From NCBI GenBank assembly GCA_916610825.1, contig OU744454.1:2648501-2712500 (forward strand): a DNA stretch of 64,000 bases. Direction: 5' to 3'. Positions 19,894 through 62,800 of the stretch are shown here, piece after piece. A model generated the notes under the pieces. It was not told where the DNA came from. It saw only the letters and a program-made list of their open reading frames with translations, and did no database searches. Source of the stretch: Haliclystus octoradiatus (Eukaryota; Cnidaria; Staurozoa; Stauromedusae; Haliclystidae). Made by a program: the position numbers and the translations under genes. How positions within the stretch are numbered: the first letter of the stretch is position 1; every line of letters begins with the position of its first letter.

Positions 19894-21620
19894 TTAAATT
19901 GATAAAGGATGGAGTGACATACGCAGTTGTGTTGTTTTAGAACATTTATTATGATGAATGCTATTTGACCGTTCGTTTTTAATTATTTTACCAATAACTT
20001 CGTTTTGCTGTGAAATTTTTGATTGAAGATCATCTCGCTGCTGTAACTCATTGATTAGTTGTGTCGACATGTCTGAAGAGAGAAAAACAAAAATATAAGC
20101 CTTCAAGTTATACCCTTTTATTATGAACTCAGTAATTATGGATTTAATCCGATTCAGAATCTGGTTTTTCTTGAGTTGCCTTTTCCAAATACTGAAATAA
20201 TTCAATATACGCAATATAACAACATTATTTGGAAAAGATAGTGTTCAGAAATTTAATTAATCAAAAGTGGATCAATGATTCCAACAGGATCCATAGTGGC
20301 TGATTTATAAATCCGATTGAAGCGGGCATTAGTAATCTGACAATAATGTCTCATCAATAATAGGCCATAGTTTAACTCAAAGTCATCTATTTACATCTAT
20401 TTATTATACTAGCTAGCTATGTTGTTTCGATTATCAAGATATATGTTAGACAAGAACATAGGTTATAGAATATTCTATAATCTATGACAAGAATAACTAC
20501 TAGCCTAGGCCTAACCACAAGTTCAGAGACATCTATTCACGTCTACTTATTGCCGGGACTTATTGTAAATAGATGGATCCGTACTATCAGCTAGCTATGC
20601 AGTTTTTATTATTAAATATTAGGTTAAAATAGATAAGAATAACATACCACGAATTTTTTCTTTCATTTGAGCTATCATGTCTTGAATTTTATCAGAATCC
20701 ATTTCAAGAACTAGAAAACAAAATAAATAAATAATTAATTTTAAAAAGTGTTTCTATTTAATGAAATTATATTTAATTACATTGGATTAGCGAGAGGTCA
20801 CTCAAGAAATTCAGGATTGTGAATTAATTAGCAAACACGTGGATGGCACATGTGAAACGATAAATGTACGGCAAGCAACACTATTCAACACAAGGCTCGA
20901 TTACTACCAATAAAATTGAAAAGAAATTTGCGTAATACAGGAAAATACAAAACAATCAAGTTAATTTAACAATTTAAAAATTTCTTTTCAACCAAAACAA
21001 TAACCAATTACATAAGTACCAGCTTTTTGAATCAATCAAAAACGTGCAACGCAAAAATTAACAGAAAACATTTGAATATTTAAAATTATATAAAAAACAT
21101 TCTGATGAACGCAAAGTAAACGCGTGAATCTCCGAGTAATGGATCAAAACCTGTTTTAACGTGTGTTTATTAACTACTGAATAAATAATATTTTATACTT
21201 ACGTTTATTTTTATCGATTGTTGAAGTAGCTGTTCTTGTATTTAATTTCAGCTGTTTAGGCTGTTTATTTGATATATTTTCTTCGTATTTTATAATCGAT
21301 TGTTTGTCAACAACACCAGTTGAATAACATTTATAATGTTGATTATTTTCCATTGCTTTTCTTCGTATATCATGATTTCTTTCAACAATATCAGTCCATC
21401 GTAACAAGCACTCCTTATGAGCAAGAGACGAAAGCAAATCTTCGCTTGTAGTTGAATTTCTTTCGTTAATGAAATCATCTGATAGATTACATGATATAAG
21501 TTCTTCGTCAGTATATTTATGACATAAATCGCAGCATTCTGTATCTAAGTCAATTGTTTCAAAACCATAATCAGATATTTTTTCAATATTCATCATACAG
21601 AATGATTGTTGCTTGTCCAT
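19894..21620 (-). CDS. Three-exon protein, 219 aa, with FEZ/UNC-76-like coiled coil
   Basis: Exons 21203-21620, 20648-20710 and 19894-20072 join in phase through GT-AG borders (donors GTAAGTAT and GTATGTTA). Residues about 1-140 include a Cys/His-containing stretch (CCDLCHKYTDEELISC, later HKECLLRWTDIV) that could bind zinc but fits no family I know. Residues about 141-195 form a heptad-like helix with IRDMSTQLINELQQRDDL. In layout this resembles the coiled coil of FEZ1/FEZ2 (UNC-76), kinesin-1 adaptors for axonal transport. The protein is much shorter than FEZ (about 390 aa) and lacks a recognisable FEZ C-terminal block. The start at 21620 has a good context (AAAATGG). Gene structure is well supported; the family link is tentative. 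Confidence 0.6.
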
Positions 21621-23267
21621 TTTGATAAATTTTTTCGTAAATAAAACTTCAACTCTTCCTTCTCCTTTCGATCAAAGAAATGTCAAAACCCAGTACGCTT
21701 CCACTTTTAAACTGTTCCAAGCAGCTTATTATGTCACAGATAAAAAATATAATCTTGTTGACCAAACGGGGCATTCCTCAGTTTTTCCCAAACACGACTG
21801 AAAGCTGTTTACGGAACTGAATTGAAAGTAGGCCTACACATGATTTGCGATTTCGAATGTTTAGGTTTTGATCTGGTTTTGATAGGTTTTGATCGGTCAG
21901 CGGCTGTAACAAATGACGTCACGTCACTATAAACAAAGTAGATGACGTAATGTTTTATGTTCTCGTTTGTTGTTAGGTTTCTCAACCCACGGGAAAATCC
22001 CCACGCCCAACAGACATTTGAATGAGTGTATATTTGGGATAATCCTAAAATATTGATTACTTTCCATCAAAGCAGGGTATATAGGTAATTTACCTTCTTT
22101 AAAAAGCTTACAAGAGAGTGTTTTAACCTCATAAAAAGAAAGTTCTCTTCAAATCAAATTCAAAGGCCGCTGCTCCAAGCTCCAAATTGAGTAACATCGG
22201 GATTTGATTCTAGAGGGATTGAAGGTGGTTAAACGAATGAATCAGCTTTTGACTATATAGATATGTCTGCAACAGATCATGGACAGATCAAAAGAGATGT
22301 TAGGAAACTAGGCTACAAGCAATGCTCTCTCAACTGATCGAGGCCGCATCCGTCCCGTCGACGGCGATGCGGCAGTTAGTATAGATGTTAGATATTTGAC
22401 CCTTAACTCTCATGTGATATCTAGACTCTACAATGTAAAGAAGAAGAATATTAAATATACACAAATGGCAAAGTTCCGCATGATGTTACATGCAATACAT
22501 AGGGTATTGTGCGTTTCAAAAAGGCATCTTCTGTCTGCCCTTTTCGCATCTCTGCCTCAAGGGTAGGACAGAAGATGCCCCTCCTGTCATGTCATTGATA
22601 TGTGTAGATGACTTCAACTTCTTTAATAAAATTAGTCCTGTAATGGCTTTCGTCCGCACAGTTTTCTTGCGGTATGCCAGTTGATAGATGTATAGGGTAT
22701 TCTTGGTTGTAGGACAATCTAAGTTGAGTATCATCTGTTATCCATCAGAGAGCTTTGAAGTAGTTTTGACAGCTTCGTAGATTTTAACCTTTCGCAGTGA
22801 CGGTGATATAGAGATATTTTTATAATCGTCCGAATAATCCACGAATTTCAACTGTCAGAAACGGCAGACAAAGAAATTTATATCCATGCTTATATCTGCC
22901 TAATTGCCTATGACGAAAGTCTGCGTGGTGCATGGCGTGTGTAGTCCAATTTCCACTGTTCACTCAGTCACCGTTTTTTCAAGCAAGATATTTGAGTTAT
23001 TATACAGTTATGTAGAATTGACACAATGATTCAAAGGATGATATCATTAAGTGCATGGGTATATGTCATCGTACAGCTCAAAGAAAAGTTTTCCATGGAT
23101 ACCCTTTCTAGATTCTAATGATGTTTCGCAAATTCCCTTCTCACCGCACACCCTCAATATGACACAGAGTTGGAAATGTTTGGCCAGTTACGCGATGAAT
23201 ATTTCTAATTTGGTCCCTGATCTAATTTGGTCCCTAATTAATTCTCATCTGTTGTGAAACGGCACTA

Positions 23268-23570
23268 AGGAGGATTAACTCAGATGGCAGAGCAACCGAA
23301 CTTCAGATCGGATCATATCTGATTGACTGTGGTTCAAATCCCCCGAAGGTCAACTCAGCCTTGACTTAGTAGCTGCGGCGCATCGTTGCGCATTGACAAT
23401 CGAGACCTATCTGCCATGAAATCTGTTGAAATTGATCTGCAGTGTCGCAGCTGAGATCAACAAATAGTGTTTAAAATCTTTGCTCTGAGCGAAAAAAGCC
23501 ACTCATCTAGGAATAGAGGAATGGTACGGGTGCCTTCGATATACCGACACCGTCTACATTACTTACTTTT
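23268..23570 (+). repeat. tRNA-derived SINE
   Basis: A-box-like CAGATGGCAGAGC (from 23281) and B-box GGTTCAAATCC (23331-23341) have tRNA spacing. They are followed by a body containing GCATCGTTGCGCATTG and GATCTGCAGTGTCGC and an end with GAATGGTACGGGTGCC. Copies occur at 56213-56545 (+), 6010-6240 (-) and 61258-61370 (-, 3' part). Confidence 0.7.
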
Positions 23571-23892
23571 TTAAACGGCACTCTAACTGTTGCAAGTTAT
23601 AACATCACCCACGCTCATAGTGAGATTACAGTCAATTATATTATATATTCATACGATTGTGCATTTAAAGCCGTATGTAATATAAACAAAAATCACCTGC
23701 GTTTAAAGTTTGCTAGAAATTGACAAAGAAGCAAACGAACAGATCAAAAATAATAATTAGTGTTATTGTCATATACAGAGATATGGCTACCTATGTGTTT
23801 TATTGATGTGACTTTGTTCCGTTGAAACGTCCCTCCGTTGGGATTTTTTGAGAATTGCCTCCGCCGTGTTCTATATGTATATATATAGCACA

Positions 23893-24055
23893 ATATAAAG
23901 AGGAGTCAAAGATTACACATTTTGTTACTGTAACTTAAAGCTTCACGCTTTATTGCGATCATCAGACCTGAATACATGCATCAGTCCTGATGATCGCAAT
24001 AAACCGAGAAACTTTAAGTTACAGAAACAAAATGTGTAGTCTTTGACTCCTCTAT
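23893..24055. ncRNA. Inverted dimer with hammerhead-like cores (copy A)
   Basis: Palindrome with about 68-bp arms (starting GAGGAGTCAAAGATTACAC) and a short loop. Each strand carries CTGATGA followed by a short stem II and GAAAC (plus strand, core at 23987) or GAAGC (minus strand). Stem III is present on the plus strand (ACTT/AAGT), but stem I pairs poorly, so this copy is probably inactive. The tail on the right has CAGCTCAG then GAGCACTG. Confidence 0.5.
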
Positions 24056-24750
24056 TTATACTTACAGCTCAGTCGACAGACTTTGAGCACTGTTTTATAC
24101 TGCTATTGGATAATATTGATTATTGTATAGCATAATAGATACAATATGAAGTTGCTTGGATAGAAATGATCTGTTCAGCAAACCAATATCAACGCAAAAT
24201 GACAGATTATATACATAAATAGCATATCATATGATAGGTTTTCTAAAATAAAAAACTTCATTCGAATAACAATAATAATTTCTTTACCCTGCAGTTTTCT
24301 TCTAATTTAATCAAAATCTCAGTTAAAAAAAATGTATTATTGTTTTCACAACAAGAAAAATCAAATTCATTTACTTGTGTACGTAGATATAGTCAGTTGC
24401 AGGTGATTTCTTACAAAGGAACAATTATGCTGCAGTAATGCACATGTGAAAATATAAATTTCTCTGTTAACCTTCGATCCATACAAATATTGTTGAAGCC
24501 AGTATATAACGAGTTACTTTTAGATCTATATACAGTATATAGTTTGAAAAAAAATCCAATTATATTAATTAATGATTTTGTGTGCGGAGATTAATGCTTT
24601 GACGTCAAATGAGAACCATATGCAGCTTGACATCGATATATACTATCATATACGTGGTCCAACTCTCTAACCACTACACCAAGGCCGCACTTTCGTTTAA
24701 TTAAAGAGGATATTTGTCGTGACCAATCAAGATCTCCATATATATATATC

Positions 24751-25866
24751 ATGAATTCAACTGAAATATGTACAGAAATTGGTTATATATTTCCAAAATT
24801 AATTTCTGGATTAATCATTCTATTAGGTTTAATTTCATTAATTGGTAATGGCATATTATGTTATGGGATGTTAAAAACAAGAAAATTACGTACAAATATT
24901 AATTGCTTAGTGCTATGTATGTCTATGACAGATTTAATTAGTACAATATTCGTACAAACTATTGATTCTTATTTTTTTATTTACTATCCAATTTTTAATT
25001 TACAACCACTAATTACTATTTTATGGAACGCAATGTATACAGCGTTAATGTCGTCAACAGTTTACTTTTTATTTATGGTAATGCTGGATCGTGTTATAGC
25101 CGTACGGTATGCTTTAAGATATCATACGATAGTTACATTCAAAACAGTTACATTGATTATAACATTTGGTTGGTTTTATACTTTATTTATATTTGTTACG
25201 TTAGCTGTTATACAAGATACTCCATTAAAAGATGAATACGATTTTTTAGTACATGAACATTTTTATCTTATATTACTTTCAATTACTATATTATTACCTA
25301 TATTACTAACAGGTATTATGTCAATCTATTTAGCAAAAGTTGCAAGAGTTCATCAAGCTTGCATTTTGAGAACCAGTAAATTATTAAATTTCAAAGCAAT
25401 TTCCGATGTTGAGGAACAAAGTCAGAAAAGGAATAAAATGGTCCTGAATCCATCTCGACCCATAACAGCAACAACAACAACAGAATTGGAAAAACCAAAA
25501 CGAACAAAATGGCGAACAAAAAGTTTACAACGAATTCGAACTGTTAAAATGAATTTGAAATCATTAAAATTAGCTTTACTATTAGGTATCACATTAATCT
25601 TATCAGTATTACCATTTTTAATTTTTAATTTTTTAATTATGCTTGAATTCATTGATTATACTTGTAAAGTTGTATTTATTGATCATGTACTATCGTGGAT
25701 GACATATTGGACTTCATGGCTAAATATATTTGTATATATTAAAACTAACCGTGATTTTCGAAAGCTATATAGGCGAATGATATTATGTTGGAGAAAACCA
25801 TCAGCTGTTGGTATAGAAACAATTAGCGTAAGTTCGTTGAATAATCAATCTAGTATTACAATATAG
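24751..25866 (+). CDS. Orphan rhodopsin-like (class A) GPCR, 371 aa, intronless
   Basis: Seven-helix plasma-membrane receptor. There is a short N terminus with an N-glycosylation site (NST, residue 2). TM1 has GN (N33), TM2 has D61, and TM3 ends DRV (113-115) followed by IAVRYALRYH. TM4 has W141 and TM5 has P183. ICL3 is long and basic (about 200-270). TM6 has VLPF (W6.48 replaced). TM7 has NIFVY at 325-329 in place of NPxxY. No Cys occupies the usual start of TM3, so the standard TM3-ECL2 disulphide seems absent. Helix 8 begins NRDFRKLYRRM, and Cys346 could be palmitoylated. It is clearly paralogous to the gene at 33205. AATAAA at 25935-25940 is a likely polyadenylation signal, 69 nt after the stop. 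Ligand and G protein are unknown. Confidence 0.9.
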   Translation: MNSTEICTEIGYIFPKLISGLIILLGLISLIGNGILCYGMLKTRKLRTNINCLVLCMSMTDLISTIFVQTIDSYFFIYYPIFNLQPLITILWNAMYTALMSSTVYFLFMVMLDRVIAVRYALRYHTIVTFKTVTLIITFGWFYTLFIFVTLAVIQDTPLKDEYDFLVHEHFYLILLSITILLPILLTGIMSIYLAKVARVHQACILRTSKLLNFKAISDVEEQSQKRNKMVLNPSRPITATTTTELEKPKRTKWRTKSLQRIRTVKMNLKSLKLALLLGITLILSVLPFLIFNFLIMLEFIDYTCKVVFIDHVLSWMTYWTSWLNIFVYIKTNRDFRKLYRRMILCWRKPSAVGIETISVSSLNNQSSITI

Positions 25867-26545
25867 CCATGTGTGTGTTTGTATAACTTTATATATATAT
25901 ATATCTTTGTAACTGTTTGTATAGTAACTTTTTAAATAAAATGAATTTTTAAAAAAGTTATTACAACAAATGTTAGTTGAACAAAAACGTTAACCGTCAC
26001 GTGCAATTTCAAAGTTGAATAACTTTTTGATTTTTATGTTTTTTTAAAAGCTCGCGGAAGATTTGTAGTAAATGTAACAAGGTGCCAGATGCAAAAAAGG
26101 ATTTGAAAATCGGTTGTAACAGAATTACACGTTTGTGTTTCTAGATGACCCACTAAATCTTGACAAAAGGGCCTCGGACTAGTTCAAGTTGCACACTTTT
26201 TCATAATTTTTTTCTTGGGATTGTCTTTAAGTTAGTTTCTGATTAACTCTAGGTCTAGATCATTAATTTCCAGTTCTGCTATACACCAGTTGAAAAAGTC
26301 ATTTTTGGGGTAAAAGATTTGACATATGCTCTGCACATCATTATTCTTAATACGTGCATATAGAAAAATTATCTAAAATTCTATGGACAAATTCAAATAA
26401 AAATGAAAGTTTCTATGTATATGATGCTATAATCGAGTTTCCTCTTTCTTTAAACGAGGCACCAAATAGCCTGCTCGCAGACTCACTGTCAAAATGTAAA
26501 CTTGGAAAACAGTAGACTGTTTACTGTTTACCAAATTTACATTTA

Positions 26546-27024
26546 GGCCCTGTTTACAAGGAGGGCGAGTTACTCGGGTAGGCGAGTTACTCGGGTTGGC
26601 GAGTTACCCGGGTCTATTGTTTATGCGCGTTCTGTTTACAAGCAAAGTGAGAAAGTTGTCTCGCCCACCCGAGTAACTCGCCTACCCGAGTTACTCGCCT
26701 TGGCAGACCGGGTAACTCGCCTACCCGAGACAACTTTCTGTCACTTTTTGACTTGTAAACGGATATAGGCGAGTAACTCGGGTAGGCGGGTTAAAAAATT
26801 AAAAATGGTAGCTTTAATTTTCTATTGTTTCGAACGTTTCCGCTGTAGACATCTTTTGTTCTCTAATCGTTCCATTTCAGCGCGCATGCTTAGATTGGCT
26901 TCAAATTATTTAACTCGGGTAGGCGGGTTACTCAGGTGACCCTTGTAAACACACAACACATTTTAACTCGGTAAGGCGAGTAACTCGCCTACCCGGGTAA
27001 CTCGCCCTCCTTGTAAACAGGGCC
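26546..27024. mobile_element. PIF/Harbinger-like MITE with TTA target duplication
   Basis: 479 bp with terminal inverted repeats GGCCCTGTTTACAAGGAGGG and complement, flanked by TTA (26543-26545 and 27025-27027). Both halves contain repeated GAGTTACTCGGGTAGG words. The GGCCC terminus and TTA duplication fit PIF/Harbinger. It is itself inserted in a second palindromic repeat whose ends read AGCCTGCTCGCAGACTCAC (26470) and GTGAGCAGGCT (27033). No ORF. Confidence 0.8.
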
Positions 27025-27330
27025 TTAGACAGTGAGCAGGCTAGGCAACAAAATGAACAGTTTTATTTTCATATTATTTGAAACTTGAATCAAATATGAA
27101 ATATTCAGCTATGATTTAAAATTTTTGAATCAAGAATATTATAGAGTTTATTTTTCAAGATTTTCAAGATGAAAAAAAAAGCCTGGGAATGAAAGTAGGA
27201 AAAAGGAAGACTGGTAAAGATATAAGAGACGGACATTTAGTCCTAGACTTCAGCATTCAATCCGTATCCTCTGTGCGGAGCCCGGCTATAAGAATCCATC
27301 AAGCAGAATCCTAAAAGTTCATGATAGGCT

Positions 27331-28318
27331 GAATCGGATTCCAGCTCCAGACATGTAAGAAAGTTAGACACTAACTCTAAACCCGATTCCAATATCCAGA
27401 GAAACTGAATCGGATTCCAGCTCCAGACATGTAAGAAAGTTAGACTCGAACTCTAAACCCGATTTAAATATCCAGAGAAACTGAATCGGATTCCAGCTCC
27501 AGACATGTAAGAAAGTTAGACTCGAACTCTAAACCCGATTTGAATATCCAGAGAAACTGAATCGGATTCCAGCTCCAGACATGTAAGAAAGTTAGACTCG
27601 AACTCTAAACCCGATTTGAATATCCAGAGAAACTGAATCGGATTCCAGCTCCAGACATGTAAGAAAGTTAGACTCTAACTCTAAACCCGATTCCAATATC
27701 CAGAGAAACTGAATCGGATTCCAGCTCCAGACATGTAAGAAAGTTAGACTCGAACTCTAAACCCGATTTAAATATCCAGAGAAACTGAATCGGATTCCAG
27801 CTCCAGACATGTAAGAAAGTTAGACTCGAACTCTAAACCCGATTTGAATATCCAGAGAAACTGAATCGGATTCCAGCTCCAGACATGTAAGAAAGTTAGA
27901 CTCTAACTCTAAACCCGATTCCAATATCCAGAGAAACTGAATCGGATTCCAGCTCCAGACATGTAAGAAAGTTAGACTCGAACTCTAAACCCGATTTGAA
28001 TATCCAGAGATTCTTGATCGGATTCCAGCTCCAGACATGTAAGAAAGTTAGACTCTAACTCTAAACCGGATTCCAATATCCAGAGAAAATGAATCGGATT
28101 CCAGCTCCAAACATGTAAGAAAGTTAGACTCTAACTCTAAACCGGATTCCAATATCAAGAGAAACTGAATCGGATTCCAGCTGCAGACATGTAAGAAAGT
28201 TAGACTCTAACTCTAAACCGGATTCCAATATCCAGAGAAAATGAATCGGATTCCAGCTCCAGACATGTAAGAAAGTTAGACTCTAACTCTAAACCGGATT
28301 CCAATATCCAGAGTGACT
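27331..28318. repeat. Tandem repeat, 76-bp unit, 13 copies
   Basis: Units begin GAATCGGATTCCAGCTCC at 27331, 27407, 27483, 27559, 27635, 27711, 27787, 27863, 27939, 28015, 28091, 28167 and 28243. Two unit variants alternate (GATTCCAATATCC versus GATTTGAATATCC, preceded by CTCTAAC or CTCGAAC), suggesting higher-order duplication. The last units share CCGG in place of CCCG. Open frames here are by-products. Confidence 0.9.
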
Positions 28319-28324
28319 CCAATA

Positions 28325-28615
28325 AAACGTCCAATAATTTGATCAGGGACGGGGACGGGGGTGCCACTTTGGAAAAAGGTAAAGTACCCAAAAAGTTCCA
28401 AAAATTCTGTTGATGCTACTCAAAAAGTTACAGCAGGTTGATTGATTTCAATTAAATACACAAAAATGAAAAATTCTTAAAAAAGTCAAAAATAGGATAC
28501 CCAAAAGCTCCAAAATTTGATATCTCATACCCAAAAAGTTTTTTCTCAACTGGAATATTGACCCAAAAAAGTGGCACGTCCCCGTATAGCCGTCATATGG
28601 GAGTTACCCCCCGGG
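28325..28615 (-). mobile_element. Interspersed element with GGGTAACTCCCATATGACGG end
   Basis: On the minus strand it begins near GGGTAACTCCCATATGACGG and contains ACTTTTTGGGTATGAGAT and GGTACTTTACC-like words. It ends CCAAAGTGGCAC near GTCCC. A second copy lies at 41193-41512 (+). Both are non-coding and about 300 bp. Confidence 0.6.
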
Positions 28616-29623
28616 TAACAGATCAAAGGTGTTAAACTCCATTAATTTCCTTGGAATTAGGAAAGACTATGGCTTGTTAAAATCACGGCCCTAAATGCCT
28701 TGTTATTGCATCAAAGCTGCTGTTTCATCGTTTATGATGAAGATTTTGGATTGAGTGGTGATAGTGACGATTGTGGTAAAGTGAATAGATGCATTGCAGA
28801 GAGAGAGAGAGTTTCCTGTTACTACTATACACATAGATGCCATTGAAAAAGGTATTATTCAAACTTTATCTAAAATTTAAGAATTACTCTTTTCTGGACC
28901 TTCTTTCACCGCTTTCATTGGTTACCAGTCGTATCGTCCAGTGGTGATATCGTCCATTTCCGAGAACGTCCTACCGAATACCATAACGTCCAGTTTCGAA
29001 AAGGTCCAGGCATACTAACAGCTATAGATTATTCCCTTCGTTAATTAATGAATCAAAAACGACAGTTTATATTGATATAAATATTAATTATAAAACATGA
29101 ATAACTTTCAAGGGCAATAATATTAGTGTTTTGTTTTCGTCAATTTTCGAAATTTTACGCGTTCATTCCAATGAAGGCCAATTAAAGTTTGGTCAACTTA
29201 CAATGAGTAAATGATGTAAAAACCGTCTGTTTAATACTAGGTCTTGTGATGTATCTTCTATTAAATCTCTAAAACATTTGTTCAAGTTTGTAATACATTG
29301 GTCTATTTAGTATTGTAGTTTGATTGACCTGTTTTCGAATTTTCACGAGTTCGACTTCCAGCGCGTATTTTGGTCAAGTTATAATTCTTATGATTAATAT
29401 CTGATTTGATGCAATCACCTCCACCAGTATTCAATTCAAGAATATATTTTTAAATTAATTAATTAATCCAGCTAGAAATGAAGAAAGAATGTTTTTTGTG
29501 ACTGGACGTTATGACCGGATACTCTTTCATTGTAATGTTAACATCACAGCGAGATTCCGGGTACCCGTACAAGATTGCAGCCTAAGAATGTAGCTGTTAA
29601 GAACTGGTATAACGCGATAATAC

Positions 29624-29738
29624 CTAGCCTGCGCGCAGACCCAAATCTTTTTTTTATGATTAGTAGGATTATTAGTAGGTTATTATTATTAGTAGGAGTA
29701 TGATTATTAGAAAGATTTAGGTCTGCGCGCAGGCTAGA
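29624..29738. repeat. Hairpin with CGCGCAG arms
   Basis: TAGCCTGCGCGCAGACC at 29628 is complementary to sequence ending at about 29736, with a spacer of TTAGTAGGATTAT-type simple repeats. It is related to the AGCCTGCTCGCAGACTC repeats at 26470 and 58923. Confidence 0.65.
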
Positions 29739-30289
29739 TAATACCCGGCTATTTCTCGGGGATCTGGGGGCTGGACGTGCTGTCATTTGGCTAGTGCACA
29801 ACTGTATATCGATGTTGACGTTAAGTAATTTTAGGATAGAGCAAAACGACCCTTAATTTCCAGGAGGGAAATCACCATAGAAGCTTTTACTTAGTAAATA
29901 TCAAAAATCTTTTGAAATGACTAAAAACGCAGATTTGAAATAAATCGGATTAATACATTTCGGATATGCGATCGACTGAATTTCAAAAATGAAATAATCG
30001 GTTTGATGATTACAATGAGTTCTGAAATCATTCGGTGTCTTTATCCAAGTTAAACGATTAAAAATACCAATTGAACATTTGAATCCGATTACGTTTCTAA
30101 TAGCAACAATTATTAATTGTGGTTCATAGTGAAAATCTAACAAACAATAATCTTCTCAAAGTAGAATTAAAACATGTAGGGTGGATTTACGCTCACTTTT
30201 ATTTACAATTTTAAAATCATTTGTTGGTAAATGCTATTCATATATATATATATACTAAACGTGTCATATTTGTAAACCGTTGTCTTACT

Positions 30290-30486
30290 GATTGAACATA
30301 GGGCTCAATGCAAAATATAGCAGAGCTTAAATAATAAAAGTCAGAGAATGAGACAGTCATGTTTGCTACTTGAAGTTTCACGCCGTGGAGCCTGAAGCAT
30401 CATTGAATAGATTGCCTGATGATCGCCTCGGCGTGAAACTTCCAAGTAGCAAACATGACTGTCTGATTCTCTGACTTTTATTACTA
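30290..30486. ncRNA. Inverted dimer with hammerhead-like core (copy B)
   Basis: The plus-strand core reads CTGATGA (30416-30422), then stem II TCGCCTCGGCGT, then GAAA (30435-30438). Stem III is ACTT/AAGT around CC, and the cleavage triplet is GTA ending at 30448. The 5' side (ATTGC) pairs with GCAA after the cleavage site to form stem I. The minus-strand core in the other arm has lost CTGATGA. The family tail is on the left (GGGCTCAATG, then AGCAGAGCTT). The fold is inferred, not tested. Confidence 0.6.
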
Positions 30487-30924
30487 AACGTGTTATAAAT
30501 TCTTATTACAAAAAAAATCCAAATAGAAGTAAATATGGAATTGATGAATTATAAATTTTCAAAACTGTTCAATCAATATTTGAGCAAGATTACAGATTTT
30601 TGCTCAAAACAGCATTTAACAATATTATCTCTCGTCACTTTAATCTACAGTATTTAAAGAATCATATAGAATTAAATTCAAAAGTAAATATAGTTAAATT
30701 AAGAAGGTAATTTAAAAGCGTTGAAATTATTCATAGCATTAAAATACTCGAACAAATTCTACAAAGATTACGAATACATCTTTATTACTGTATTACAGTT
30801 TCACGCAGTGTGCAATGACATGACAGCTTTTACTCGATCTATCTATTTTAGATGAATCTATCTTTATTATTATATTGTATATTGTATATTATAATTATAT
30901 AATGTGGTGTAAGTTGTCTTACTG

Positions 30925-31072
30925 ATTGAACATAGGGCTCAATGCTATATACAGCAGAACTTTAAATAATATATGAAATATGAAGTCAAAAATCAAACAA
31001 TCATGTTTGTTACTCAAAGTTTCATGCCAAGGCGACCATCAGGCAATCTATTCATAATTTCATATTATATCA
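30925..31072 (-). ncRNA. Monomeric hammerhead-like element (copy C)
   Basis: Minus strand: CTGATGG (31042-31036; the usual final A is G), stem II TCGCCTTGGCAT, GAAA (31023-31020), then stem III ACT/AGT around TTG, then GTA. Stem I pairs GUU with AAC after one mismatch. Only one core is present. The outer AT-rich arms pair imperfectly. The family tail is on the left. Confidence 0.5.
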
Positions 31073-31146
31073 TTACTCTATCTATATTATAATTATAAAT
31101 GTACGAGACAAAAGATCAATAAAAGAGCCAAATGCTAAATGCAGAG

Positions 31147-31215
31147 ATCATCATCATCATCATCATCATCATCATTTATTCAGAACCTTTAAGTTATACA
31201 AACTTTTTTTCAAAG
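31147..31215 (-). mobile_element. Non-LTR retrotransposon 3' tail with (ATG)n
   Basis: On the minus strand the sequence reads AGTCCTTTGAAAA ... TCTGAATAAATGATGATG and ends in an ATG-type simple repeat. A second copy with the same 3' sequence is at about 35993-36064. These are short 5'-truncated tails. Confidence 0.6.
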
Positions 31216-31310
31216 GACTGATTAGAGATATAGAATGGTTGACTTAAAGATTACGAGTCTAGTTTGTTACTCTAGATTTCGCTAAATTTAATTAAAAATA
31301 TAAAATATCT

Positions 31311-31520
31311 GCAGGTGAATAGTGCTCAATGATTGTAAATAGCAGAGCAGTAAATAATAATAGGTCAAGAAAGGCACACCACTTTTACTGTTCACGTTGT
31401 TAAACAATCATTAGACAGAACAAAGATTTCTGTGTTGTGTATTCTGTCCAATGGTCGTTTAACAACGTGAAACTTTGACTAACAGTAAAAGTGGTGTGTC
31501 TTTCTTGACCTATTATTATT
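31311..31520. ncRNA. Degenerate hammerhead-like inverted dimer (copy D)
   Basis: Palindrome 31355-31519 with arms starting TAGGTCAAGAAAGGCACAC. The cores are decayed (CCAATGG on plus, CTAATGA on minus), but stem II (CGTT/AACG) and GTGAA(A)C remain. The family tail on the left has AGTGCTCAATG and AGCAGAGC. Confidence 0.5.
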
Positions 31521-33204
31521 ATGATTGTATGGAATATGTAATTTGAAATATATCATCCTTTTAAATTTTCATACTCTTAATTTTGAAAAAATAAAATTGT
31601 TAAACGAATTTATGGTTGAAAAACTCTATACAGTTTCAAACTATTTTTCAAAAGTGACACTTCGATTGTCTTAGATAGTATTCAAAAACTCACTAGAAGA
31701 AAATAATCGAAACTAATCTGGAAGGACCCCTACACAGAGGACTAGAAAGAAAATTATTATATGATGGGTGGGCTAAATAACGCAGACCGGATTTGAACCG
31801 TACTCGGAAAAAGTGTCCGGACAAAAATAATTTTCCACGGGAAACAAAGACACGATAAAACATTGAATTACAACATTAAATTTGTTAAATCAGTAATCAA
31901 ATTTATTTGAACGACCTTCCATAACATAAACAAACTTGATTCTGAACTTTGTTTTATTTTAAGGTTTCTATGTCTGCATTCATATTTACTGCATGAGGAA
32001 TATTACGAAATATTACGAATTACGAAAGTAACAAGATGAGGATCTTTTACAAGGACATTTGTAAATATCTTGACCAACTGAGCATTTAATTTCGACAGTA
32101 TTACACAAGGTTACAGCATTAAAATAAATAGTTATAATCCGTGAAATGTATTATTCCAAAAAAAAAACATGCATGAAAGCACAGCATTTAATGTTTGAAA
32201 AAAATTGAAAACATATTATAATTAGAGAATAAAAATAATCTAACAATAAGAGTTCAAAAACTATTTATTTAAATATACTTGATAAAAAGAAATTATTATA
32301 TCTATATTAACAACGAGACAATATCTAGTCTTTGACTTTATCTCTATACTGCCCTGCATATCCGCATCGAGCACTCTATTGATGTTTTGCAATCAATAAA
32401 GTTAATATATCTGTATTATAAGTGTTATATTTTTAATAAAAAGTAAAATACCAAATAAGAAATTTAAATTTGAATAAAAACATAATATTTACTGTATATA
32501 ATTCGCTATGGGAACGTAAAAATAGTCAAGCCGTGTTTTTGACTGATAGTATTGTTCTATGCATTTTGTTCAACAACGTAAAAAAATTGTTGGCGTCAAA
32601 TAGCGTCGTAACGGGGAAATCTATTCTTTTAACTAAACATTCGTGCATGAAAAGAACAGTTAATATCGTATTGTGAATGTTTACTGAAGCACATTATTGT
32701 TACATGAATAAGTTAATGTTCACTTTTGACTTCATCGATGGTAAAACAAGAAAATTCAGCTGCGTTTTGTAATAAAAAACAGCAGTATTATTAATGTAAA
32801 AAAGAATATTAATATAATTTTATCTTGATTTTAATAAAAATCATTGTTATATTTCATATCATTTTATAGTTTTAAAGTATTTTTAAACGATACAAAAGAA
32901 GTTTGAAACAGATTACACAGCTTTTTATACGTTTGAGTTCGCATATGCATTTAACACACAAGGCGTCGACAACGTTGGGAGTACAAAGTATATACTATTT
33001 TGTTGAAACTGTAATTTTAAACAAATTATGCATCATTATATTGTTGGATAATATACTGCTTAATGCAATCTCATTTTGGAGATTTCATCTTTGTGATTGG
33101 GACGAGGCTATATACTTGGGTAACAACATTAATTAAAAGAGTAAGAAAAAACCCGAGGAGATTTATCATTATAAATGGCATTTTGATTATAACTACACAG
33201 AATT

Positions 33205-34269
33205 ATGAATACTACAACATGCGAATTGTCACCAGTTAGCCCTGCCGCATCAAAAACAGTATCGGCAATTGTCTTATTAATGGCTATAGTAACTTTACTT
33301 GGTAATACATTATTTTGCTATGGAATATTAAAAAGAAAACGTTTACGTACAAATATAAATTGTCTGGTAGCTTGTATGTCTATATCAGACATCACAAGTT
33401 CATTAATTTTACAACCATTTGATGCATATTATTTCTATCGCTATCCTCATTATCCTTTTACAACAGCAGCGACACGTTTCTGGGTGGCCGGATTTTTTTC
33501 TCTTATGACAGCTTCGGGATATTTTTTAGCAGCCGTTATGGCTGATCGAATAATTGCAATCCGTTTTGCGTTACGCTATCATGCACTTGTTACGGAACGT
33601 GAAATACGTTTAATAATAATAGTCGGTTGGTGTTATTCAACTGTAACATTTATAGTATTGTTAATAATACAAGAACCAGAAAAATCAACAGAATTTATAT
33701 TTCCATTTAATAGACATTTTTATTTAGCTATTTTAATACTTAACGTTATCTTCCCAATTACATTAACATCATTTATGGCAATATATTTAACAAAAATGGC
33801 AAGATATCATCGTGATTTAATAATTAAATCAATGCGTACAAGCGGTGTTACAAATAATCAAGAACCATCTAGATTTAAAAGAAACAATAAAATACATCCT
33901 GTTGTTGTCGATGAACAAAATAGTAGTGATACAAATAATGGAGAAGGTAATACTAATAATGTTAACCAACAGAGAGCTACACAATTAAAACGTTTTAATA
34001 AAGAATTAAGATCATTAAGATTAGCTATATTATTAGGTATTACATTAGGTATATCATGGATACCATTTTTAATCTTAAATTTTGGACGCATTTTTCATTT
34101 TATTGAATTTACATGTGTAATACGGTTTATTGATATGGTATTAGGTTGGATGACGTATTGGACATCTTGGTCAAATTTATTTGTCTATGTATTAACAAAT
34201 AAAGATTTTAGAAAAATTTATAAAAATATGTTACGATGTCATACTACAACTAATAATAATAATCGTTAG
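33205..34269 (+). CDS. Orphan rhodopsin-like (class A) GPCR, 354 aa, intronless
   Basis: Paralogue of the receptor at 24751. N-terminal glycosylation site NTT (residue 2). TM1 has GN (N34), TM2 has D62, TM3 ends DRI (114-116) followed by IAIRFALRYH, TM4 has W142, and TM5 has P184. ICL3 is polar and Asn-rich (about 200-268). TM6 has SWIPF (284-288), nearer to CWxP than its paralogue. TM7 has NLFVY (324-328) instead of NPxxY. Helix 8 is NKDFRKIYKNM, then an Asn-rich tail. The usual TM3 Cys is absent. Strings such as LRTNINCL and GWMTYWTSW are shared with the 24751 gene, so a local duplication is likely. The 10-kb flanks are filled with hammerhead-like hairpins. Ligand unknown. Confidence 0.9.
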   Translation: MNTTTCELSPVSPAASKTVSAIVLLMAIVTLLGNTLFCYGILKRKRLRTNINCLVACMSISDITSSLILQPFDAYYFYRYPHYPFTTAATRFWVAGFFSLMTASGYFLAAVMADRIIAIRFALRYHALVTEREIRLIIIVGWCYSTVTFIVLLIIQEPEKSTEFIFPFNRHFYLAILILNVIFPITLTSFMAIYLTKMARYHRDLIIKSMRTSGVTNNQEPSRFKRNNKIHPVVVDEQNSSDTNNGEGNTNNVNQQRATQLKRFNKELRSLRLAILLGITLGISWIPFLILNFGRIFHFIEFTCVIRFIDMVLGWMTYWTSWSNLFVYVLTNKDFRKIYKNMLRCHTTTNNNNR

Positions 34270-34368
34270 ATGAAACAACTCAAGTTTTGTATTAATATTT
34301 TTTTTATTTAAAACATGCAACAATGTAAAAAAGAATTAGCACCTAAAAAACATATACATTTATATTAA

Positions 34369-34545
34369 TAATAATAATAATAATGAGAAGGTCAAGAAAG
34401 ACATATTTTTCTGTTGTAACTCTAAGTTTCACGTTATTAAACGATCATCAGCCAACATATATTTCTTAACCTTCTCATTATTATTATTATTTACGCTCTG
34501 ATATTCACTAGCATTGAGCACTATCCTTTTGCCAATAATATTAAG
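34369..34545 (-). ncRNA. Monomeric hammerhead-like element with long stem I (copy E)
   Basis: Minus strand: CTGATGA (34451-34445), stem II TCGTTTAATAACGT (4 bp, CGTT/AACG), GAAA (34430-34427), stem III ACT/AGT around TAG, then GTT. Stem I follows as TTG/CAA after one mismatch and continues into long outer arms (AATAATGAGAAGG with its complement), giving an extended stem. The family tail (GCTCTG, then GAGCACT) is to the right on the plus strand. Confidence 0.55.
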
Positions 34546-34756
34546 ATTTGATATTTCTAAATGTTATTACTAAATATCTTTATATTATATTTATATTTAT
34601 ATTGTCATATTATTTATTGAATTTTATAAAATTCAAAACCTATTTCCATGTAATTATAACTGCGATCGATGCTTGTTAATATATCATGAAACAATAATTC
34701 AATATAATTGAGTAATGAAAGGCACACACTGTAATAATATATATATATATTTAAAT

Positions 34757-34995
34757 TTAATAAAAGGAGTCAAAGACTACACATTCATAATTGTTACTAA
34801 ATTAGTTTCATTCTTACGCAATCATCAGACAAATAAACTAAATTAGTTTATTTTTTATTTAGTCTATGATTTGTCTGATGATTGCGTAAGCATGAAACTA
34901 TTAGTAACAATTATGAATGTGTAGTCTTTGACTCCTTTTATTATATTTAGCTCTGTCAAATGATATCGAGCACTATTTTTTGCTATTAGATAATA
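34757..34995. ncRNA. Inverted dimer with two near-intact hammerhead-like cores (copy F)
   Basis: Arms of about 68 bp (from 34766, starting GGAGTCAAAGACTACACA) are almost identical. Plus core: CTGATGA (34875-34881), stem II TTGCGTAAGCAT, GAAA (34894-34897). Stem III is ACT/AGT around ATT, and GTA ends at 34906. TTGT before the core pairs with ACAA after the cleavage site. Minus core: CTGATGA (34828-34822), GAAACTA, then TAGTA and ACAA, with one stem II mismatch. The tail on the right has AGCTCTG, GAGCACT and TGCTATTAGATAATAT. Confidence 0.65.
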
Positions 34996-36719
34996 TCTAG
35001 TATATTTAAATTTATAGATACTGTGTAAATGGTTTTATTTTAATAAAATTTATTATCTGTATAGGATTTTTAAAAATTGAATATTTAAATTTATTGAAAC
35101 AATTTCATATAATTTTTTCTGGCACGCACGTTTGCAACGTTAAATAATTTGATAAGTAATATTATAATATAGATGATACTTGTAAACAATAACACATTAA
35201 CATATTCAAGATTTATAACAATGAAAATCAAATATTATTCTAACTTGTCATTTCTTGAAATTAAATTCTCTGATCACAAGACATTTATTCATATAGATCT
35301 AGTGAATATATTCCGTACTTTTATCCTCTATTATGGCCCACGATGTAACCTCAACAGATAATTCTGAAGAAAAATGTATTAGGACTCTACATGGCTAAAC
35401 CTTTTATCACACACAGTAAACAACGTTGTAAAATAAAATTAAGCGCTATCTCAACTCACTACCGACAACAAAACCATGAAAATGTCATAAATGTGTTATG
35501 AAAACACTTTGAAAATGTAAAAATAACTGAAAACCACAATTTTTTTAAGCCATGAAAATGTTTGAAAACCATGAAAACATCCATATTCATGATCTTAAAA
35601 TGTGAAAATGTCATGAAAACGCAATGAAATTTCACGCTTTATATCATTTTGGTGTCAGTAGTGACTGATGTTAGATAAAATGTTATCATTACTATTATAT
35701 ACACAGTCATATAGAACTTACAATTATATTATTTCCAAAGCAGGATTTTTTTTAGGAGTAAGGGATGTGCGGGGATTAATTAATATAAAGAGAGAATTAT
35801 AAAAACAAAACATATAACTTTTTTACAATTGAATGTTTTGATAGGTTGTACTTCCACTAACCAACTCATTTAAAGGGTGTGTATATTTAAAAATGCTTAA
35901 AATGCGTTCTGCAGATTTTTTAGGTTCTGATTCGATGAATTACAGCAAGATTGGCATTTTTGATTGATAAATTTTGTGAATTCATCATCATACATCATTA
36001 TCATCATCATCATTTATTCAGAAAACCTTCAAGTTTACATCAAACTTGTTTTCAAAGGACTGATCGATTGAAAAAGTCGACTGCTGTAATGCTGTCGAAA
36101 CTAAATGTATAATATTATTTCAAATTATAAGTATTTGCCCCATCAAATTGTCAAATAGCTGATAAATATACGCTCACTTTTAAATAGAATTTATGATATA
36201 GGGCTTTTTCACGTCGGTCATATTGGTTTTCCTTAACACAATATCCTATAGGACCAGTCTTTCCACAATACACTACCAGGTTTATCAATATTTTTTTTAA
36301 TAAATCTCAATGGACTCATTAGGGACCTGAGAAAAAGCTCTATTGTCACGGGTTTGATCGAGGGAGAATACAGTAATACGAAACCCAGGGTAAAACATCG
36401 TGGGGAAATGGCGCCAAAGTTGACCACGTTTTGGCGTTTGAAAAACTAAATCAGTACAAATACTGTATGCGGTATACTTCAGATGATTACAATATTCAAA
36501 GATGGTTATAAAGTTTTGCATGTACAATAACATATTTAACATATTATCAAACATGATGACTGTAAAATTAATGATTTATGGTAATAATTCATTCATAATT
36601 TAGATATATACATTCAATGCATGATGCTGTATAAAGAATTCAAATGAGAAAGACTCACAAACATCTAGTTGCTGTTGTAGATTGATGTGATAAGGATATG
36701 AGGCTGTTTCAATAGGACA

Positions 36720-43962
<7,243 letters not shown>

Positions 43963-59800: not shown

Positions 59801-62800
59801 TACATTAATAGTACATACTTTGCCTAGCTATAACTAGCAAAATGCTTCAATCCTACAATTTGTCAATGTCCGCATCAGAGACCCTCATTACAAAATTTAA
59901 AAATAATATCTACTGTTAAACAATTAATTTTCATCTTGAATATTCTTATACTAGTGTCAGTCTGCTTAAAATAGAAATATTTCATGTCTACAGTCTAAAT
60001 TTCAAATAATATACGATAACAAAAAACAAGTACCTCTCCATTTATCTCAAGCACAAGTCGCAAAACACCATGAGCTGCAGGATGTTGAGGTCCAAAATTG
60101 AGGGTGATATTTGTTACTCCTTTCTCAGGAACAAACTCTAAAATAAAACATAACAGTAAAAAAAATTAAATAAACAGCACAACCAAAAAAATACTGGAAA
60201 TATCTAGGAGACAGAAAAATGAGAAATGGTGAATGACACAGTTAAATCTTGCACATTAAAATATATTTTTAACAACAGCAACTTAAATTACAGTATCTAG
60301 AAAAATTGACCACTACAACCAGGTGGCCTTTATAAACAGGATTGATTCAATAGAATATCTTTCGTATATAATACTTATATATATATAAATTTTGTATATA
60401 ATAATAAGTGGCCATTGTAGACAGGTTTTTGGTATATAGGTGGCTTTTATAGCAGGTTTGTAATTATAAATATTTTTGTTGACGTTGGCCATAATATACG
60501 CCTCAAAGCTTGCCTATTGAGTCTCACGATTTTACATTGAAACTCACAGTCTCACATTTGCTCTTACTGTGTCACGGCAAAATTCAACTTTGAGTAAATT
60601 CCATTTAATTTCTGTGTATATACTCTTTTATAATGTAATTAATGTTCAGCAACTTAATTTATACTCTGTTGGATTATGCTGGTTATTGCATCTAGACTGA
60701 TTTCAAGTTTTTAAACAAGATAAAAAACGTCAACATTATCCATAATTTTGTTGTTGATTTTTGTTTCTGCCATTTTGAATACATGACGAAACACATGTCT
60801 CAAGACCACTTAGAAATGGGCAACTCTTTTAGGTTGGCCCCTACGATTTATTCCCAGAATGCAGAATTTCAAAAATGTCATCGTTTTTCAATTCTCAAGT
60901 TGGAAGGTCTGGATTTACTGTTACTAGAAGAAGATTGTAATCAAAATGTTAAGAATTTGACTCACCTTCTGTGCCCCATTTTGATGTGACCTCATCTGGA
61001 TACATAACAGCTGAACTGTATGCATCTAAGCTACCTGGTAACTCTGGATTTTTTAATTCATCAGTGGTTTCCTTTGTGACAATTCTTTGAAATGACCTGC
61101 ACGTAAACATAGTAATGGATAATAGGGATGAGAATACAGTCAAATCTGGCAATAGTTTCGGCTTCAAGAGTAACCCAAAAGAGTTTGATACTGAGTAATT
61201 TACGGTCAAACTTTGCTACATATTTACCGTTAATAACGGACTCTGCCTTAATAAAAGTAAGTAATGTAGACGGTATCGCCTTCTTACCGAAGGCACCCGT
61301 ACCACTCCTCTATTTTTAGAGGAGTGGCTCTTTTCGCTGAGAGCAGTTATTTTAAACGCCTTAACTGGTAAAATAGTTTGTCTCCCTAGCATAGGCCTAC
61401 TGCTATAGCCAGATTCAACTGTAAATTGATATTTTGCGCAAGGCATGCCTCTTTATTTTACCAAAGTTCTTCAAAAGCCAAATAACTTTAGAAGATTGTA
61501 ATTCCTGCAGATTTTATTCCTAGATTTCATAGTGAAAGCAAATCTAGCATGTTCCCAGACTGAAAAGTTTGCTGTGCGCGCCTGAGATCTCAGGCGCGCA
61601 GCAGACTTTCCTACGTAGGATTTTAACTAAACTTGATTGAATCTCAGGCACGAAAATTGCAATATTTTCAATCTGGGCATGTTCAAAATCAATTTTGACT
61701 TGGAAATAGTTGCGCTGCGCAAAACGCAACAACGACATGTACGGATAGAAAAAACCGTGCTATTTAAGTTCGTTGTGTAACAGAAGGCGATATAGACACT
61801 TTGAACAATATCACTACTTATAGATGAAATTTCCGCACTTTTAATAAATTTTCAAATTCGAGATCGAGATCATGCAACATTCGAATTTTGAACTTGGTTT
61901 ACCTGGGTGATGTGATTGGCGGTATCAGATACAGGTCAGGCTAGGCGGCTAGTGACAGGTATTAACTATTAGTCTAATAGTATTAGATGTTCATATTCTT
62001 CAATGACTTCCCTGATTGCGTGAAACACAGCAGGGTCGTCAAGTATGCTGATGACACAGTGATTTATGTAAACGGAAAAGAAAAGGAAAACATCGAACAT
62101 TTACTAAACCAGGATTTAGAGAGCGTTGCGGAGTATTTTGATAACAATGAAGTCATTATCAACCTTAAAAGGGGGAAAACTGAAGCAATGATATTTGGCA
62201 CCGCTAAACGATTGCAAACAACTAATAAAGAACTTGATTTATCTTACAAAGGACAAAAAATAAACAACGTTTCAGAATATAAATACTTGGGAAACATCGC
62301 TGATCGTCATCTTAACTTCAACAAAAACTTCGACAAGATTTACAAAAAGGCAAGCGGCAGGCTCAGGTTACTAAAACGACTCCGTTGCTTTTTGACTCAA
62401 GATGCCGCCTACAGAATATACATAATGATGATTGTTCCATTGCTGACATACAGAGGGCCGGTGAAGTTGGCGTACACTAAAACACAGGAAAGTCGATTTT
62501 CTTCCTTAGAACGACGAGCGAAACAAATAATTGGGAGATCTGTACCAAGCATATTAAACTCGGTCAAGAAAGAGGCACTTCTGATAGTTAAACGCTCTTT
62601 GGAAAACGAAGTATGTACCAACTTTGAAGGCTACTTTCAAATTCGAGAACATCAGGTGGTTACTCGTAACAAGGGGTATCTTCTCGTTCTTCCGAAAGTC
62701 AAGCTGGAACTTGGTAAACAATCATTCAACTACAGCGGTGCAAAGATATTCAATGAACTACCACTGTCTGTCAGGAAGGCAACTACTACCAGTGCTTTTG

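Follow-up and report, generated by a model that had tools for sequence, protein, structure and literature searches.

A set of short hairpin elements in a 64,000-nucleotide stretch of the genome of the staurozoan Haliclystus octoradiatus (the whole stretch is called the window below) probably consists of truncated, partly decayed insertions of Penelope-like elements (PLEs) that bear a minimal type I hammerhead in the pseudo-long terminal repeat (pLTR), the repeat between tandem units. Judged from sequence, the window copies are short, mostly inverted and partly decayed pieces of the PLE ribozyme and 5′ untranslated region (5′UTR), and the comparison of copies across the genome shows that a predicted three-stem junction with the hammerhead core is kept across families. 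Hammerheads of PLEs are a known kind; what is unusual is the frequency of U-U at positions 10.1 and 11.1, the presence of four states of this pair in one genome, and the covariation found in loop III.

Conservation of the hammerhead core

The genome that holds the window comprises 262 Mb in 33 contigs. The pattern CTGATGAN{4,30}GAAAC has five matches in the window against 0.27 expected, and CTGATGATYGCN{2,20}TGAAAC has 2,839 in the genome, where the same pattern written backwards has none. The other genome patterns demanded CT...AG in stem III. With U at position 7 and positions 10.1 and 11.1 left free, CTGATGAN{9,22}GAAACTN{2,4}AGTH gave 4,210 matches (reversed control, 3); the same kind of pattern with any other letter at N7 gave 2,688 (reversed control, 20), and in total CTGANGA...GAAACT(2–4 nt)AGTH occurs about 6,900 times. 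The stretch allowed for stem-loop II was 9–22 nt in the U7 pattern and 9–20 nt in the patterns for N7, A6 and H17 = G. The initial annotation had described the elements as clustered around the G protein-coupled receptor (GPCR) genes of the window; the motif is found thousands of times across the genome, and since the elements are a genome-wide repeat, their nearness to these genes needs no special cause.

The core of a type I hammerhead reads C3-U-G-A-N7-G-A9 and G12-A-A-A15.1, with N7 alone free. In the genome, N7 is other than U in 2,688 places and A6 is altered in 131 (control, 12), compared with 4,210 places carrying the U7 consensus, and most of the 100 A6-altered places listed look like scattered decayed copies. 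C3, U4, G5, G8, A9 and G12 to A14 were fixed by the search patterns, and the constraint test covers N7 and A6. At the cleavage site, 4,210 places have A, C or U as residue H17 and 30 have G (control, 4); when H17 was left free in 149 fetched cores it was A in 102, T in 42, C in 5 and never G. These 149 cores are not a random sample, because their loci were picked by pattern or by open reading frame (ORF) and some overlap: L009–L068 head the list of contig C1 places given by a pattern that required T..T, L076–L108 were picked from the U7-pattern matches because the T..T-demanding pattern missed them, and L112–L133 were picked by ORF.

Regarding the stems, 374 of 436 stem I cells in 109 distinct cores are paired in register (86%), compared with 27–40% when the register is slid. 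Pairs I.1, I.3, I.4, II.2 and II.4 of the same cores scored above all 2,000 shuffles, the score of II.3 was reached in 93 of the 2,000, and pair I.2 showed no excess (94 against a shuffled mean of 94.8); the shuffles ignore the relatedness of the cores, and their counts are not probabilities. Pair III.3 provides no test, because the filter kept only cores with pairable letters at 15.3/16.3. Core, helices and cleavage-site rule thus behave as type I across families, in agreement with the initial annotation. The pairing examples that it quoted for stems I, II and III are present in the window sequence, and the covariation they suggested is found in several stem I and II pairs of the 109 distinct cores and in the letters of loop III as well.

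The closing pair of stem II, G10.1-C11.1, is absent from most window copies, which have U-U. Among the 149 fetched cores the 10.1/11.1 letters are TT in 105, TA in 16, GC in 15, AT in 7 and others in 6. When about 100 listed matches of the U7 pattern were read by eye, 26 were not T..T (13 T..A, 7 A..T and 6 others), and G-C at this position, with any N7, occurs in 826 genome places (control, 0). U-U is not limited to copies that lack an ORF, as it is found three times in a tandem array with two complete 721-codon open frames. U-U is therefore common and not universal, with U-A, A-U and G-C families beside it in one genome. The window itself holds exceptions to the earlier statement that every copy carries U-U: the right arm of element A has T..A and the copy at 21102 has A..T. 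A natural U10.1-U11.1 hammerhead has been described (Perreault et al. 2011), and according to the cited sections of that study this mispair allows more cleavage than any other at the position (PMC3088659). Because U-U counts there as a natural variant, we did not treat it as excluding a hammerhead, and what had been noted as the weak point of the assignment is a variant already published as rare and found here in many copies. Literature searches for hammerhead with "10.1-11.1", and for Naiad with Penelope-like and hammerhead, found no paper.

Loop III carries a further signal. In loops of three letters, letters 1 and 3 are pairable in 92 of 97 distinct cores, compared with a shuffled mean of 57.9 (none of 5,000 shuffles reached the observed 92), while neighbouring letters are pairable in 33 and 43 of the 97 and the middle letter is free. 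When each distinct loop III was counted once, 16 of 20 were pairable against 11.3 (P 0.004); with Watson-Crick pairs only, the figures are 11 against 7.2 (P 0.06). A pair between letters 1 and 3 cannot close a one-letter loop and could form between two ribozymes, thus pointing to dimers. The covariation would fit dimeric hammerheads, a model proposed for hammerheads with a weak stem III (cited parts of PMC3088659 and PMC6466107).

Four other observations concern related motifs and arrays. A tandem array at L015:490-1151 is built of a 53-nt unit; CTGATGA alternates there with CTTATGA, and stem I is unpaired. A short-unit hammerhead array is found at C1:11374788-11375262, where six minus-strand G-C-type cores at 59-bp spacing precede two plus-strand cores. 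A recurrent hammerhead-like motif, CTGATGAAGGCTAATGGC(C/A)AGAAACATGTACTTGTC, is present at L071, L072, L119 and L124; it contains the palindromic ACATGT and has, by eye, no in-register stem I. Finally, L042:484-890 contains a pair of direct copies separated by 368 bp, of which the first is broken by other sequence just after GAAACTTAAA.

The carrier retroelement

An open frame ending in a Cys/His-rich motif lies upstream of several cores. With a 201-codon piece of this ORF as query, open frames of up to 760 codons were found among the best 150 of 1,171 candidate places. Some ORF copies are arranged in tandem, with a spacing of 2,519 bp at C4:29214738-29219776, and divergent pairs are numerous. 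The tandem 2,519-bp units contain three identical cores and 721-codon frames, the core recurring upstream of the next ORF, and at L115 and L133 the same core is found on both sides of the ORF, 2,454 bp apart, one such frame having 760 codons. The region behind the ORF was examined for 29 C-termini, each with 450 nt or more of downstream sequence and some at overlapping loci, and 28 of them have a core within 800 nt downstream on the same strand; the distance from stop to core is 122 nt in 15, 182 nt in 7, 171 nt in 3, and 154, 173 and 412 nt in one each. The pLTR-ORF-pLTR layout of PLEs, with tandem and inverted copies, is thus seen in the tandem units, the cores on both sides of the ORF and the divergent pairs, and the placement of a hammerhead in the pLTR, as in PLEs, is seen at the 28 C-termini. 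The leader TGTATRTTTTTCATT recurs before the ribozyme, and we take it for a putative TATA-like promoter by analogy with PMC3846280 (cited part).

Features of PLEs include a telomerase-like reverse transcriptase (RT) and a GIY-YIG endonuclease domain. The letters FDIENYYPSI, LYRDDG and FLDITLNL, read by eye in the ORF, resemble those of an RT. The segment YIGLTEGTFKQRYTQH, a candidate for the GIY-YIG domain, was aligned by eye and with hhalign to E. coli YhbQ, the latter weakly (score 18.9, probability 3%). Twenty C-termini of the ORF entered this comparison, and the E. coli proteins were two of the GIY-YIG kind and nine unrelated ones; the unrelated ones scored at most 13.8 and UvrC 12.5. A tblastn search of the window with three ORFs (E ≤ 0.001) gave no match. 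The non-autonomous ribozyme-bearing family of the initial annotation survives in part: the window copies are non-autonomous retroelement pieces, and an ORF-bearing partner is present in the genome. Another open frame of the window, at 61987-62832, looks by eye like a reverse-transcriptase fragment of a LINE (with YADD) and is not the element ORF.

Palindromes and copies in the window

An inverted partner lies within 420 nt upstream of 76 of 153 cores, a count made at a loose similarity cut-off in which many pairs were entered from both arms. For 65 of the 76, the point where the arms cease to be identical lies 0–18 nt upstream of C3 (most often 14 nt, 11 times); in 11, identity spans the whole centre, 27–39 nt. 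The leader of solo copies starts near the point where the arm identity of the palindromes ends. Among 148 cores, 69 are followed by a box, GCTC...GAGCAC, which in 57 cases lies 70–89 nt past the core start, and 17 by (ATA)4+, compared with 22 of 2,000 random window pieces. The presence of the box in some copies and its absence from others recall PMC11167929, where a tail between two RT start sites is optional.

The palindromes have the look of PLE insertions joined head to head and not of a separate hairpin family. The protein of an anole PLE cuts and extends both target strands (PMC11167929), an activity that could give head-to-head palindromes; for the palindromes of Adineta vaga the explanation offered is self-priming on an antisense template (PMC3846280, cited part). 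In the mechanism that we propose, transcription would start about 14–18 nt upstream of the ribozyme, and the ribozyme would cut 3′ of GUH, mainly as a dimer formed through its palindromic stem III. Cutting would trim or separate tandem RNA units. Uncut transcripts would be copied from both cut target strands, and the joining of the two cDNAs head to head would yield the palindromes.

In the window, inverted repeats with arms of 38–79 nt hold five of the six elements (A, B, D, E and F; Table 1), and none of those listed for the window includes element C. The two-core elements (A, F, the decayed D, and B, whose left partner is decayed) have the left core on the minus strand and the right core on the plus strand, and element E has a core in a single arm only. 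The cores of C and D are decayed, and those of A, B, E and F show little or no damage. All six elements lie where they had first been annotated; CTGATGA, described then as common to them all, is altered to CTGATGG in C and to CCAATGG and CTAATGA in the two arms of D, and the left arm of B is decayed. The copy at 21102, a seventh that the initial annotation had missed, is solo, with a changed A15.1 and a decayed stem I. Since they lack an ORF and several of their cores are damaged, the window copies are probably not active in place.

Table 1. Hammerhead-bearing elements, cores and remnants in the window
Feature	Positions	Strand	Description
Seventh hammerhead copy	21102..21142	+	Solo; A..T at 10.1/11.1; A15.1 changed, stem I decayed; located by blastn with 7 cores from other genome loci
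Element A	23893..24092		Palindrome 23893-24059; GCTC..GAGCAC box on right side
Element A, left-arm hammerhead-like core	23928..23969	-	U-U form; GAAA changed to GAAG
Element A, right-arm hammerhead-like core	23987..24024	+	T..A at 10.1/11.1; stem I broken
Element B	30302..30501		Box and palindrome
Element B, core	30412..30452	+	Intact, U-U form; stem I TTGC/GCAA; left-arm partner decayed
Element C	30936..31053		Box and single arm; no listed inverted partner
Element C, hammerhead-like core	31007..31046	-	Decayed, CTGATGG
Element D	31322..31520		Box and palindrome; both cores decayed
Element D, decayed core	31448..31485	+	CCAATGG; stems II and III pair in part
Remnant with 5′UTR box, no core	32308..32410	+	Found with cores from elsewhere in the genome
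Element E	34370..34522		Outer arms 34370-34407 and 34454-34491; box on right
Element E, hammerhead core	34414..34455	-	U-U form; first stem I pair mismatched
Element F	34752..34974		Palindrome 34752-34949 and box
Element F, left-arm hammerhead core	34791..34832	-	U-U form; longer loop III
Element F, right-arm hammerhead core	34871..34910	+	U-U form; stem I TTGT/ACAA

Four other features of the window are of a different kind. A tRNA-like stretch at 23268-23345 with a B-box-like GGTTCAAATCC, perhaps a short interspersed element (SINE), is also present beside one fetched core; a tRNA search called none in the window. Positions 26545-27025 contain GC-rich inverted and repeated GGCGAGTTACTCGGGT units within the AT-rich window, and another inverted repeat, with 42-nt arms and by eye unrelated to the hammerhead elements, is found at 29609-29752. 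At 38963-39484 there is a short tandem repeat; several of its frames are open, and one of them encodes a recurring 11-residue unit.

Alternative explanations and relation to known systems

Several results weigh against the interpretation of the hairpins as PLE insertions with a hammerhead. The U10.1-U11.1 mispair weakens stem II, and covariation of pair II.1 (10.1/11.1) is not significant, its score being reached in 483 of 2,000 shuffles of the 109 distinct cores. Minimum-energy folding of monomers gave the full three-way junction in 0 of 117 distinct cores. No Rfam hammerhead reached the gathering score in the window and none appeared in 23000-36000 at E ≤ 10, so that for the window the lack of an above-threshold model match, which the initial annotation had named among its refuting outcomes, did come about for Rfam; over the genome, RF00163 had no match among the best 73 of 24,130 candidates, where no control matched either. 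As for the ORF, Pfam (E ≤ 10) gave no GIY-YIG match and, apart from zf-RVT at 0.95, none to an RT domain, and searches of ORF pieces and frames against Pfam, NCBIfam and PDB otherwise gave only weak matches to unrelated families. RVT_1 matches lie elsewhere than the studied ORFs (best 150 of 7,639 genome candidates), and none of the 44 PF01541 genome places listed falls at them. PLE membership accordingly rests on architecture and on motifs read by eye. In the one PLE tested in vitro, moreover, insertion did not depend on the ribozyme, which required added protein in order to cut (PMC11167929). Two sets of matches were set aside: 20 Rfam matches at E ≤ 10 in 23000-36000, to microRNA, snoRNA and sRNA families, were all below gathering and were taken as generic hairpin matches, and one PDB chain, from a botulinum neurotoxin entry (E = 0.008), consisted of low-scoring scattered pieces and was judged a chance match.

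Some of these points would suit a different explanation, in which the conserved letters are a recognition site for an element protein, serving as RT start or for RNA binding, and the hammerhead appearance is a leftover, with cleavage lost in the U-U families. The occurrence of U-U at the most conserved hammerhead pair and the lack of a stable monomer fold agree with it, as does PMC11167929, in which insertion could do without cleavage and the element protein binds RNA close to the ribozyme. A binding site of this sort would not account for an H17 that is almost never G (30 against 4,210), for an N7 that is free while A6 is kept, or for stem I pairs exchanged between families; G-C families of the same layout exist, and the cores in the tandem array with open 721-codon frames are of a U-U family. 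We regard this explanation as unlikely. The short copies could also form a family of their own, retrozyme-like or SINE-like, that spreads as small (circular) RNA and merely borrows enzymes from the PLE. Most window copies do lack an ORF and extend little beyond the arm or box, short tandem arrays exist (the 53-nt unit at L015 and the 59-bp spacing at C1:11374788), and metazoan retrozymes bear type I hammerheads (PMC7229834, cited part). That possibility seems to us improbable, however, given that the window copies are solo or inverted and not tandem repeats of 170–400 bp, that helix III is minimal, and that the same core families occur at a fixed distance from ORFs. Least plausible of all, with very little in its favour, is that the hairpins are ordinary foldback DNA transposons (miniature inverted-repeat transposable elements) or microRNA-like hairpins, similar to hammerheads by chance. 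Long inverted repeats, and the microRNA precursors among the best sub-threshold Rfam matches, would be expected from such hairpins, but those matches are all below gathering scores, the motif has about 6,900 matches against 3 and 20 in the controls, 77 of 153 cores have no inverted partner, and the motif follows retroelement ORFs.

Truncated PLE insertions thus remain the explanation that we favour. A more detailed version of it is offered tentatively, with somewhat under even confidence. In this version U-U would be the normal 10.1-11.1 state in many retroelement families, one of them in tandem with open 721-codon frames, beside U-A, A-U and G-C families; the ribozymes would dimerise through the palindromic stem III; the palindromes would derive from uncut transcripts that start about 14–18 nt upstream and are copied from both cut target ends; and the ORF would belong to a Penelope-like lineage so divergent that the RT and GIY-YIG models applied here miss it.

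Cervera and de la Pena (2014) and Lunse et al. (2017) have reportedly described minimal hammerheads in PLEs. PLE hammerheads, pLTRs, inverted copies, and cutting and extension of two strands are covered in the cited parts of PMC11167929, PMC3846280 and PMC6155905. Compared with the minimal PLE hammerheads in the sections cited of PMC6155905, PMC6466107 and PMC11167929, the copies studied here agree in their type I topology, their minimal helix III, their location in the pLTR and their very high copy number, and the dimer model is proposed for both; they appear to differ in that U10.1-U11.1 is commonest, with U-A, A-U and G-C families beside it. In the anole PLE the ORF starts at stem II, whereas here the ribozyme lies in untranslated sequence ahead of the ORF. 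The Penelope of Adineta vaga (PMC3846280) shares the pLTR-ORF-pLTR order with an inverted pLTR, the head-to-head orientation, junction palindromes, an optional tail and a TATA-like pLTR motif; its main text mentions no hammerhead, whereas here the core adjoins the junction, and the ORF is not recognised by Pfam. The same natural U10.1-U11.1 mispair, called a surprising variant in the cited part of PMC3088659, is common in one genome here. Metazoan retrozymes, as described in the cited part of PMC7229834, are likewise multicopy, AT-rich, non-autonomous retroelements with type I hammerheads, but they form 170–400 bp tandem repeats with canonical helices and are expressed as small circles, in contrast to the solo or inverted window copies with their minimal helix III.

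The window also shows that such copies can escape standard covariance models. The roughly 6,900 copies in many families amount to a natural mutational scan of the ribozyme, in which A6 is kept, H17 follows its rule, N7 is free and the 10.1-11.1 pair takes four states, and the covariation of loop III is comparative evidence for the dimer model.

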